A stretch of DNA of 64,000 nt from Candidatus Latescibacterota bacterium (lineage in GTDB: Bacteria > JAAXHH01): contig JAJEHX010000045.1 in assembly GCA_022823465.1 (NCBI GenBank), positions 1 to 64,000 of the forward strand, read 5' to 3'. A model generated the notes under the pieces. It saw only the letters and a list, made by a program, of their open reading frames with translations. It made no database searches and had not been told where the DNA came from. This document shows positions 5,249-41,581 of the stretch, piece by piece (the first letter of the stretch is position 1; every line of letters begins with the position of its first letter). The position numbers were made by a program, and so were the translations under genes.

Positions 5249-5691
5249 GATCGGTACGACTTTGTATCGACGTGTTCTCTTTGAATCGCCACGCGGAATC
5301 GCCACGCGCTTTCTCAGCTGTGATGCGAAGCCGTCCGAGCACCGCAACGATTCCGGGAACTTCTAATGCGTCGCATAGCGCTCCCGCCAGATCCGTGAGG
5401 TCCGGGAACCCCGACGACCGCGGGAATTGGAATATACAAGGCGAGACCTGTCAGACCAAAGACCATTATGGTCCCGGTAAATGAGCAAAAGTGCAAGCTA
5501 TGCTGTGTCGTCGCAGTACCGCGCCCGGCCTTGACACGCGCAGTAGATTAACCATTCGCGGATCTAGTCCAACGTAGTGATTCGTATGGCGTATCTTAAG
5601 GCTCACAACAAGACGCGATAAATGGCGTAAAACGAACGGCGGATCACCATTAGAATCTAACGGCGAATCACAACTAAATTGGGGAGATTCA
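5249..5691. other. Gene-free stretch between selD and the 177-aa unknown gene, with short duplications
   Basis: No convincing gene was seen in these 443 bases. Two direct repeats are present: a perfect 13-bp tandem GAATCGCCACGCG at 5283-5295 and 5296-5308, and AACGGCG(G/A)ATCAC at 5635-5647 and 5659-5671 (24-bp period). The right half is AT-richer than the genome average and should hold the promoter of the downstream gene. A perfect TTGACA at 5531 has no acceptable -10 at 16-18 bases. Confidence 0.6.
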
Positions 5692-37424: not shown

Positions 37425-38978
37425 ATGACCGATCTGCCCCTGTTGTCCCTCATCATCTGGCTGCCTGTACTCGGCGCGGTGCTCCTCCTCTTCGTCAAGG
37501 GGGACGCGGCCGCCAGGTGGGTTGGGTTCGGCGTCTCCGCCCTGGTACTCGTCCTCTTCGCGGTCTGCTTCAGCGCGTTCAGGGCCCATGTCGGCGATCC
37601 GCAGTTCGTGGAGCGCATGCCCTGGATCGAATCACTGGGCGTGTCCTATCATATCGGGGCGGACGGCATCAGCATCCTCCTCGCGGGGATCACCGCGCTC
37701 ATGTGGCCCCTGGCGCTGCTCGGCACCTGGACCATCGTAAGCGAGCGGGTCCGGGCCTACCAGGTTTTCATGCTGCTGATGGAAACCACCCTGATGGGCG
37801 TGTTCTTCTCCCTCGACCTGTTCCTGTTCTTCCTCTTCTGGGAAGGCATGCTGATCCCCATGTACTTTCTGATTGGCATCTGGGGCTATGAAAACAGTGC
37901 CCGGGCGGCCCTGAAGTTCTTCCTCTTCGCCGTATTCGGCAGCCTGCTCATGCTGGCCGCCGTCATCACGCTGGCCTTTCTCTATCACGAGGCCCATGGC
38001 GTCCTCACTTTCGAAATGGCCGCGCTGTATCAGCTCGCCATACCGCCGGAAGTACAGTTCTGGCTCGCCCTCGCCTTCATCGCCGCCTTCGCGGTAAAGG
38101 TGCCCATGGTGCCCTTTCATACGTGGCTGCCCGACGCCATCGTCCTCGCCGTGGTGCTCGTCAAGATGGCGGCCTACGGGTTCATACGCCTGACGCTCCC
38201 GCTGTTTCCCGATGCCCTGGCCGAACTGGCGCCCCTCATGTGCGCGGTGGCGGCGGCCGGGATCGTCTACGGCGCCCTGGTCGCCCTGGCGCAGTCGGAT
38301 ATCCGGAGGCTGATCGCCTATTCGACGATCAGTCACGCGGGGTTCGTCGTGCTTGGCGTGTTCGCCCTGAACCAGCACGGCATACAGGGCGCGGTCGTCC
38401 ACATCGTCAGCCTTGCGCTGTCCACGGGCGGACTTTTTCTGGCTGCGATGATGCTCGCGCAGCGCCGGGATACCTGGGACATGGAAGCCTACGGCGGGCT
38501 GTGGCATGTGATTCCCGTATTCTCCGCGTTCCTGCTCATATTCACCCTGGCCTCCGTAGGCCTTCCGGGCCTGAGCAATTTCGTCGGGGAGTTTCTCGTC
38601 CTGGTCGGCGTGTTTCAGAAAAACGCGCTGATCGCGGTCATCGCCGCCACCGGGATCATTCTGGCGGCCGCCTACATGCTGCGGATGTACCGGAAGGTCG
38701 TCTTCGGTCCTTTGAGCAAGGAAGAAAACAGGGGCATCAAGGATCTGTCGTTTCGGGAGACGGCCGTCCTCGCTTGCATGACGTTCTTCATCATCTGGAT
38801 CGGGGTGTATCCCAATCCATTGCTTCGGACCCTGGAGGCTTCGGTACAGAAGCTTCTGGTCCAGACCCATCGCCTGGCCGAGACTGCGCCGGCGGGCATG
38901 ACCCAAACATCGACCGAATCGGCGCTGCTGCCGGCGGGCCTGGACGCGGCCCGTGAAGCCGCCCAGGATACGCGATGA
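37425..38978 (+). CDS. nuoM: NADH-quinone oxidoreductase subunit M
   Basis: The 517-aa proton-pumping subunit has FLFFLFWEGMLIPMYFLIG with the key Glu, MVPFHTWLPDA, and DIRRLIAYSTISHAGFVVLG with the key Lys. The ATG at 37425 is preferred, with AAGGTG six bases upstream; a GTG at 37416 would add three residues. Its stop is part of a 17-bp duplication that continues into the nuoN start. Confidence 0.95.
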   Translation: MTDLPLLSLIIWLPVLGAVLLLFVKGDAAARWVGFGVSALVLVLFAVCFSAFRAHVGDPQFVERMPWIESLGVSYHIGADGISILLAGITALMWPLALLGTWTIVSERVRAYQVFMLLMETTLMGVFFSLDLFLFFLFWEGMLIPMYFLIGIWGYENSARAALKFFLFAVFGSLLMLAAVITLAFLYHEAHGVLTFEMAALYQLAIPPEVQFWLALAFIAAFAVKVPMVPFHTWLPDAIVLAVVLVKMAAYGFIRLTLPLFPDALAELAPLMCAVAAAGIVYGALVALAQSDIRRLIAYSTISHAGFVVLGVFALNQHGIQGAVVHIVSLALSTGGLFLAAMMLAQRRDTWDMEAYGGLWHVIPVFSAFLLIFTLASVGLPGLSNFVGEFLVLVGVFQKNALIAVIAATGIILAAAYMLRMYRKVVFGPLSKEENRGIKDLSFRETAVLACMTFFIIWIGVYPNPLLRTLEASVQKLLVQTHRLAETAPAGMTQTSTESALLPAGLDAAREAAQDTR

Positions 38979-38997
38979 ATCAGGATACGCGATGAAT
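38964..38997. repeat. 17-bp perfect tandem duplication spanning the nuoM stop and nuoN start
   Basis: CAGGATACGCGATGAAT occurs at 38964-38980 and 38981-38997. The first copy holds the nuoM TGA (38976-38978) overlapping an ATG (38975); the second holds the nuoN ATG (38992). The upstream ATG opens a six-codon frame (M-N-Q-D-T-R) whose TGA at 38993-38995 overlaps the nuoN ATG, giving two ATGA overlaps in a row. Each copy also carries an AGGA ribosome site. Confidence 0.95.
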
Positions 38998-40458
38998 ATG
39001 GCACTGCCCGCGATAAACCTCTACGCCGTGATGCCGCAGATCTTCCTCGTGTCCGCCGCGACCGTGGTCCTGATCATCGGCCTGTTCGAACGGTTTCGCA
39101 AGGGCATCCCCTACCTGAGCCTGCTGCTCCTGGCGGTCTCCGGCGTGTTTGCCGTGAACCAGCTGGGACAGGGGCCTGTCGCCTTCTCCGATACATCGCC
39201 CATGATGGTGATGGACGATTTCGGCCTGGTGGCCACCCTCGTGTTTATCGCCGGCGCCATGCTGACCGTACTGATCTCCGTCTCCTATGCCGAAGCACGT
39301 TCGATCGACCGCGGGGAATACTACGCGCTGTTGATCTACGCCGTATCGGGCATGAGCATGATGGCGGCGAGTACCGATCTCTTCTCCTTCTTCCTGGGCC
39401 TGGAAGTGCTCTCCATTTCGCTCTATGTGCTGATCGGTTTCGAACAGCGGGAAGCCGGTTCGAACGAAGGCGCGCTCAAGTACTTCCTGCTGGGCGCCTT
39501 CGCCAGCGGGTTCATACTCTACGGCATGGCCCTGCTCTACGGCGCCAGCGGCAGCACGGAGTACGACGTTATAGCGCGTACCCTGGCCGGGGAGCGAAGC
39601 GACGCCGTGAATCTCCTGCTGCTCGGCGGACTGGGCCTGCTCCTGGTCGGCATCGGATTCAAGATCTCCATGGTGCCCTTTCACGCCTGGACGCCGGACG
39701 TGTACCAGGGCGCTCCGACCCCTGTCGCCGCCTTTCTGTCCACCGGTTCCAAGGCCGCCGCCTTCGTGGTGTTGATACGGCTGCTCGGCTCGGTCTTTCC
39801 CGGACTCCAGATGGAATGGGTCCCACTGATCTCGGTGCTGGCCATACTCACGATTGCCGTCGGCAACGTCGTGGCGCTGGTACAGACCAACCTGAAACGG
39901 CTGCTGGCCTATTCGAGCATCGCCCACGCCGGTTACATGCTCCTGCCGTTCATGTCGAACAGCCAGGATGGGAGCGCGAGCATCGTATTCTACCTGATTG
40001 TATACACGGCGATGAACCTGGGCGCCTTCGGTGTGCTGGCCGTACTTGCCGCCCGCGGGGCTTCCTGCGCGACCCTGGACGACCTGGCCGGCCTGGGCAG
40101 CCGTCAGCCCCTTCTCGCCGCGGTTATGGCCGTGGTGATGTTTTCCCTGGCCGGCATACCGCCCACGGCCGGGTTCATGGCCAAGTTCTACCTCTTCAGC
40201 GCGGTGGTGACCGGGGGATATATAGAGCTGGCCGTGATCGGCCTGCTGTTCAGCGGCGTATCGCTATACTATTATCTCCGCGTCGTGCTCTGGATGTACA
40301 TGCGGCCCGCGACCGAAGCGCCTGCCGGTGCGACCGGGCGTCTGTCCTTCAGCGGCATGACCGCGCTATGCCTCTCCGCCCTGGCGATCCTGGCCGTGGG
40401 CGTTTTCCCCTCTGAATTGCTTCAACTGGCCGAACGGGCGGTCATGACGCTGCCGTAA
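38992..40458 (+). CDS. nuoN: NADH-quinone oxidoreductase subunit N
   Basis: The 488-aa proton-pumping subunit has FFLGLEVLSISLYVLIGF with the key Glu, MVPFHAWTPDVYQGAPTP and NLKRLLAYSSIAHAGYML with the key Lys, and about 14 membrane helices. The ATG at 38992 is chosen since the longer frame from 38953 only reads back through the end of nuoM. It closes the operon; the next gene has its own candidate promoter. Confidence 0.95.
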   Translation: MNMALPAINLYAVMPQIFLVSAATVVLIIGLFERFRKGIPYLSLLLLAVSGVFAVNQLGQGPVAFSDTSPMMVMDDFGLVATLVFIAGAMLTVLISVSYAEARSIDRGEYYALLIYAVSGMSMMAASTDLFSFFLGLEVLSISLYVLIGFEQREAGSNEGALKYFLLGAFASGFILYGMALLYGASGSTEYDVIARTLAGERSDAVNLLLLGGLGLLLVGIGFKISMVPFHAWTPDVYQGAPTPVAAFLSTGSKAAAFVVLIRLLGSVFPGLQMEWVPLISVLAILTIAVGNVVALVQTNLKRLLAYSSIAHAGYMLLPFMSNSQDGSASIVFYLIVYTAMNLGAFGVLAVLAARGASCATLDDLAGLGSRQPLLAAVMAVVMFSLAGIPPTAGFMAKFYLFSAVVTGGYIELAVIGLLFSGVSLYYYLRVVLWMYMRPATEAPAGATGRLSFSGMTALCLSALAILAVGVFPSELLQLAERAVMTLP

Positions 40459-40540: not shown

Positions 40541-41557
40541 ATGTATTTCAGCGTGCGGTACCGTACAGCCAACCGGGGGCCATTCATAGACTTCAGGACC
40601 ATCAGCGCGCCGGTACAGGGGCATCTCGACGAGTTTGAACGCAAGATCAGGGAGATATCCCGGTCCGACGTGGAAGTCATCAACCAGATCTGGTCCCACC
40701 TGGTCCGTACCAAGGGCAAGCGACTGAGACCCGCACTGGTATTCCTGTCCGCCTCGGCATACGGTTCGCCGTGCAGAGAGACCCTGCTGTCGGCATTCAT
40801 CATCGAACTCTGCCACACCGCCACGCTGATACACGATGACGTGGTGGACCGGGCTACGACCCGCCGGGGACTGCCTACGCTGAATTCCGTCTGGGACAAT
40901 CACGTCTCGGTGCTCATGGGCGACAACGTGATCGCCAGGGTGTTGACGCTGATCGCGAAACTGGACTGTTCGAGGATCACGTCGAAAATCGCGGAATGCG
41001 TCGAACGGCTTACAGAGGGTGAATTGCACCAGGCCATCCGCCGGTTCAACATCAAGACTTCCGAGACGGAGTACTATCGTATCATAAGCAACAAGACGTC
41101 TTCGCTCATCGCCTGCGGCTGCGACTCCGGGGCCTATCTTACCAGCCGTTCGGCCGAGACGGCCCGCCGGTTCGGCGCCTTCGGCGAGAAACTCGGCATG
41201 GCTTTCCAGATAACCGACGACATCCTGAATTTCACGGGAGACGAAGACGTCATCGGCAAACCGAGGGGTAACGATTTCCGGGAAGGCACGGTTACCCTTC
41301 CGCTGATCCATGCCCTTAGGAACGCTTCGACCGATGGACACGGTCGCGTGGAGCAAATGCTGAAAGAAGAATGGAGCGACCGCGTCTGCGATGAAATCGT
41401 CGATTTCGTACATGTCCATGACGGCATTCGTTACGCGAGGAGCAAGGCGCTGGAATACGCGGAAGAAGCCAAGGAGATCATCGCGGGCGAGCCGGAAAAC
41501 CCGGCGAAACATGCGTTGTTGAACATGGTGGATTATGCCATTGAACGGGATCGATGA
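40541..41557 (+). CDS. Polyprenyl (octaprenyl/nonaprenyl-type) diphosphate synthase
   Basis: The product, 338 aa from the ATG at 40541, has GKRLRPALVFLSA, the first Asp-rich motif DDVVDRATTRRG (Asp99-Asp103), and the second DDILNFTGD followed by GKPRGNDFREGTVTLPLIHAL. This is the trans-isoprenyl synthase family; the sequence resembles the long-chain quinone side-chain makers (IspB/HepT) more than short farnesyl synthases. It would condense IPP units to the tail of menaquinone or ubiquinone, matching the complex I operon upstream. The start is uncertain because of the promoter position. No nuoN terminator is seen, so read-through from nuo is possible. Confidence 0.85.
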   Translation: MYFSVRYRTANRGPFIDFRTISAPVQGHLDEFERKIREISRSDVEVINQIWSHLVRTKGKRLRPALVFLSASAYGSPCRETLLSAFIIELCHTATLIHDDVVDRATTRRGLPTLNSVWDNHVSVLMGDNVIARVLTLIAKLDCSRITSKIAECVERLTEGELHQAIRRFNIKTSETEYYRIISNKTSSLIACGCDSGAYLTSRSAETARRFGAFGEKLGMAFQITDDILNFTGDEDVIGKPRGNDFREGTVTLPLIHALRNASTDGHGRVEQMLKEEWSDRVCDEIVDFVHVHDGIRYARSKALEYAEEAKEIIAGEPENPAKHALLNMVDYAIERDR

Positions 41558-41581
41558 TGCATGAACGGGATCGATGATGCA
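41542..41581. repeat. 20-bp perfect tandem duplication at the polyprenyl synthase stop
   Basis: TGAACGGGATCGATGATGCA occurs at 41542-41561 and 41562-41581. The first copy contains the TGA stop (41555-41557), which overlaps an ATG at 41554 that opens a seven-codon frame ending in the second copy at 41575-41577. The second copy lies around the start of the next gene. Confidence 0.95.

Follow-up and report, generated by a model that had tools for sequence, protein, structure and literature searches.

A private 17-nt tandem duplication places a six-codon frame between nuoM and nuoN in a Candidatus Latescibacterota genome

How the translation of one operon gene is joined to that of the next can be decided within a few nucleotides, and the nuoM-nuoN junction of a Candidatus Latescibacterota bacterium raises this question in an unusual form. 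Here a 17-nt unit containing a ribosome site and an ATGA overlap occurs twice, and a six-codon frame has come to lie between the two genes. A preliminary description of this DNA proposed that the frame is a relay cistron, which keeps nuoM and nuoN coupled and may tune the NuoM:NuoN ratio. We asked whether the frame is such a device or a by-product of mutation, by analysing the window, a stretch of 64,000 nucleotides (contig JAJEHX010000045.1), together with related genomes.

Direct reading and a repeat search both showed that the two copies of CAGGATACGCGATGAAT are perfect and tandem, and the 17-mer is without any further match in the genome. From the base composition, the number of exact 17-nt tandem pairs expected by chance in 64 kb is about 1e-5, and the pair is thus a true duplication. 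Copy 1 contains the final codons of nuoM (CAG GAT ACG CGA TGA), whose TGA at 38976-38978 is overlapped by an ATG at 38975, while the TGA of the resulting mini-ORF at 38993-38995 is overlapped by the nuoN ATG at 38992. A stop and a start thus share bases twice, via the mini-ORF, and the direct overlap of nuoM and nuoN is lost in this genome, with a 13-nt gap instead. The duplicated ribosome site with its ATGA, and the MNQDTR frame overlapping both genes, had been described exactly before. The end of NuoM (QDTR*) and the start of NuoN (MN) are the same as in relatives.

Table 1 Features at and near the nuoM-nuoN junction.
Feature	Position	Strand	Evidence
nuoM, 520 aa	37416..38978	+	ORF; NCBIfam TIGR01972 NDH_I_M, 527 bits
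Copy 1 of the 17-nt unit CAGGATACGCGATGAAT (AGGA + 6 nt + ATGA)	38964..38980	+	Direct reading, repeat search
Putative six-codon mini-ORF MNQDTR*, 4-nt overlaps with nuoM and nuoN	38975..38995	+	Direct reading
Copy 2 of CAGGATACGCGATGAAT, with nuoN ribosome site and start as in relatives	38981..38997	+	Repeat search; alignment to the single copy of ten congeners
nuoN, 488 aa	38992..40458	+	ORF; NCBIfam TIGR01770 NDH_I_N, 444 bits
Second perfect tandem duplication, 20 nt x 2, TGAACGGGATCGATGATGCA	41542..41581	+	Repeat search; single copy in 10/10 congeners

In both copies, AGGA stands six bases 5' of the ATG. The 3' end of the organism's own 16S rRNA reads ...GGATCACCTCCTTTC and includes CCTCC, so that an anti-Shine-Dalgarno match is present and AGGA is a plausible Shine-Dalgarno site. 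The predicted opening energy of the ribosome site in copy 2 is 3.6 kcal/mol, compared with 2.5-7.2 in congeners; the site in copy 1 is more structured, with a predicted 8.5 kcal/mol. Separately, the third codon of nuoN (38998-39000) is ATG here, where all ten congeners have ACG or TCG, and this ATG at 38998 is a second in-frame nuoN start, at +2 nt from the mini-ORF stop.

For comparison we used the ten same-genus genomes that contain the nuoM-nuoN junction; of these, six are on record as metagenome assemblies under the names Candidatus Latescibacterota or Gemmatimonadetes. Isolate names point to a sponge origin, and we take the present genome to be sponge-associated as well. Each of the ten carries a single copy with direct overlap of the nuoM TGA and the nuoN ATG, and the mini-ORF is absent from all of them; the duplication is hence a derived feature, private to this genome. 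A tree of nuoN and downstream DNA grouped the genome with the single-copy genomes G007 and G011 (support 1.0; DNA identity 91-92%), with G004 next, which places the origin of the duplication on this genome's own branch. The single ATGA overlap assumed earlier as the state before duplication is therefore borne out by the relatives, where the single-copy form is ancestral and a deep shared ancestry of the duplication is excluded. A search for a second nuo operon or further copy of the unit yielded none; the other NuoN matches in the genome are nuoM and nuoL of the same operon.

Across the genus, the CAGGATACGCGATGAAT stretch is nearly invariant, unlike the NuoM tail that precedes it. The 3' tail of nuoM is prone to indels and closes with QDTR, a largely conserved end in which the nuoN ribosome site is encoded. 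This suggests that the final NuoM codons may be kept because they carry this site. The C-terminal tail itself (38870-38963 here) is hypervariable in length (24 to 79 residues in different members of the genus) and is repeat-rich in some.

The six-codon frame follows from simple arithmetic. When a unit holding the whole ATGA is duplicated, the nuoM stop stays in copy 1 and the nuoN start stays in copy 2, whatever the length of the unit. If that length is 2 mod 3, as with 17 or 20 nt, the first ATG shares its frame with the second TGA, which produces a chain; a length of 0 mod 3 gives an N-terminal extension of nuoN instead. The relay frame is present here because the unit length is 2 mod 3, and a chained frame is a one-in-three outcome for which selection is not required. 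Because the duplication sits at a gene junction, a unit length not divisible by three is harmless here.

Short perfect tandem duplications are a common class of mutation in these genomes. Perfect tandem pairs with a unit of at least 11 nt numbered 12 in a 412-kb sample of this genome, and the figure for 400 kb of congener G005 was 41; inside genes, most pairs have units that are multiples of three. Such duplications are about threefold denser in G005 (L064-L083) than in this genome (G000; L084-L103 plus the window), and most of those in G005 exceed two copies, whereas several in this genome have exactly 2.0. Only 2.6 kb downstream of the 17-nt duplication lies a second one private to this genome, the 20-nt pair at the junction of a polyprenyl diphosphate synthase gene and a glycosyltransferase gene. 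It adds an in-frame ATG (41561), by which the glycosyltransferase would gain eight residues, and also yields a mini-ORF, MMHERDR*. A second private junction duplication so close by points to mutation and not design. A perfect 13-nt tandem duplication at 5283-5308, near the start of a minus-strand ORF, was considered as a third private case and set aside, its region being poorly conserved in congeners and its flanks too divergent in relatives for judgement.

In each of the two private duplications the copy number is exactly 2.00 and the breakpoints lack matching bases. The latter feature suggested Ku-dependent end-joining fill-in as their origin, an idea that we rejected because a search for Ku in this genome and in three congeners gave no hit; formation by slippage or another route remains. 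Literature searches for short tandem duplications located at start codons, or for duplications lacking microhomology, yielded nothing directly relevant. Exact doubling without matching breakpoint bases is less usual for slippage, and it could also be taken as the mark of an assembly or strain-mixture artefact, the genome being a draft of 55 contigs, probably assembled from a metagenome as its congeners were. We consider such an artefact very improbable: both units are non-multiples of three that sit at gene junctions with frames intact, whereas random assembly errors would mostly break genes. The k-mers usual in assembly are longer than a 17-nt repeat, which further counts against it.

Could the mini-ORF work as a relay? 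Gene pairs with an ATGA (-4 nt) overlap are known to be translationally coupled by termination-reinitiation (Huber et al. 2019, PMC6728339; 2023, PMC10666635). The ancestral junction of the genus is exactly such a pair, with an internal AGGA and with both genes encoding subunits of one complex, and the Shine-Dalgarno site in the 3' end of the upstream gene, usual though not obligatory in these pairs, is present here. The junction now differs in having the overlap twice, with a six-codon frame between the genes. Short ORFs that pass ribosomes to an overlapping gene are also on record, namely mycobacterial interspersed repetitive units (MIRUs), proposed uORF delivery and bicistronic design (PMC12548453). 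As described in that review, MIRUs likewise place a repeat with a small ORF at a junction, with a 4-nt overlap to the gene, and little effect on expression is expected of them; we expect the same of the nuoM-nuoN duplication. They differ in that they appear mobile and dispersed, whereas the present unit is a local tandem copy found at one place in the genome. The leaders of bicistronic design in synthetic biology (cited in PMC12548453) likewise carry the next gene's ribosome site in a short ORF overlapping its start, but they are engineered and stand at the head of a transcript, while the nuoM-nuoN mini-ORF follows a long gene and was born by duplication.

Comparable arrangements occur elsewhere in the genus. 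In about 750 kb of genus DNA outside the window, overlaps link the end of one gene, through a mini-ORF no longer than 30 codons, to the next gene in at least nine other places, an approximate count that depends on mechanical gene calls. In three clean ATG cases among them, the next ORF has the relay start as its own first start; one is in L083 near 6226, where MNDQPRRNQ* precedes ccacggaggaaccaATG. The strict survey, with greedy gene calling, misses real genes including nuoM and reports no chain in the window, and its counts are lower bounds; the looser survey takes in spurious antisense ORFs.

In a working relay, ribosomes would reinitiate at 38975 and, after translating six codons, once more at 38992. 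The two 4-nt overlaps, the spacing of six bases from AGGA to ATG in both copies and the anti-Shine-Dalgarno sequence of the 16S rRNA are all consistent with this, as are the small relay ORFs on record and the strict coupling of 13 of 14 tested overlap-coupled pairs (PMC6728339). Nevertheless, we regard it as unlikely that the mini-ORF is a relay cistron in this sense, since it is found in one genome only, without conservation, and its frame is automatic for a unit of 2 mod 3. The effects on stoichiometry that could accompany it, in which NuoN declines relative to NuoM through two imperfect reinitiations or increases through the embedded ribosome site, are doubtful to the same degree, given that nuoN retains its own site and there is no sign of selection on stoichiometry. 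Quite improbable, finally, is the full version, in which one 17-nt duplication gave a translated relay cistron with coupling kept and a new subunit ratio, the ATG at 38998 being part of the adjustment; if true, new short coupled ORFs could evolve by a minimal route, through duplication. The earlier proposal thus holds in part: the geometry would permit a ribosome relay, yet tuning of NuoM:NuoN by the duplication, though conceivable, has no support, in view of the restriction to one genome, the complete nuoN site predicted to be about as accessible as that of relatives, the frame arithmetic and the second private duplication.

The explanation that we find probable is a recent 17-nt tandem microduplication that survived at a gene junction, near-neutral for expression, with the relay as an optional by-product. 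On the terminal branch to this genome, the nuoN ribosome site and the ATGA overlap were copied in tandem, copy 1 retaining the nuoM stop and copy 2 the nuoN start with its Shine-Dalgarno site, so that both proteins stayed unchanged; the duplication then probably persisted by virtue of its junction position, where such a unit is harmless. Ribosomes could reach nuoN by three routes: through the relay; by crossing the 13 nt from the nuoM stop to 38992; or by new binding at copy 2, nuoN's own complete site. The relay and the 13-nt gap are each likely to be used to some extent, and we infer from the opening energy of the copy-2 site, which lies within the range of congeners, and from published coupling distances that nuoN output is probably little altered, a near-neutral effect. 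In E. coli and Haloferax, coupling declines sharply as the distance grows: it is strongest where genes overlap, varies from gene to gene at 11-20 nt and is almost abolished at around 20 nt (PMC10666635). Given this steep effect, the 13-nt gap alone might lower nuoN, and the relay could be more important than we assume.

As a biological feature, the nuoM-nuoN duplication is a recent mutation of an ordinary kind with an interesting possible consequence, and not a demonstrated control device. Ten single-copy relatives and one two-copy genome form a natural before/after pair, which shows a possible origin of short relay ORFs between coupled genes and could be used for measuring the cost or gain of a relay.
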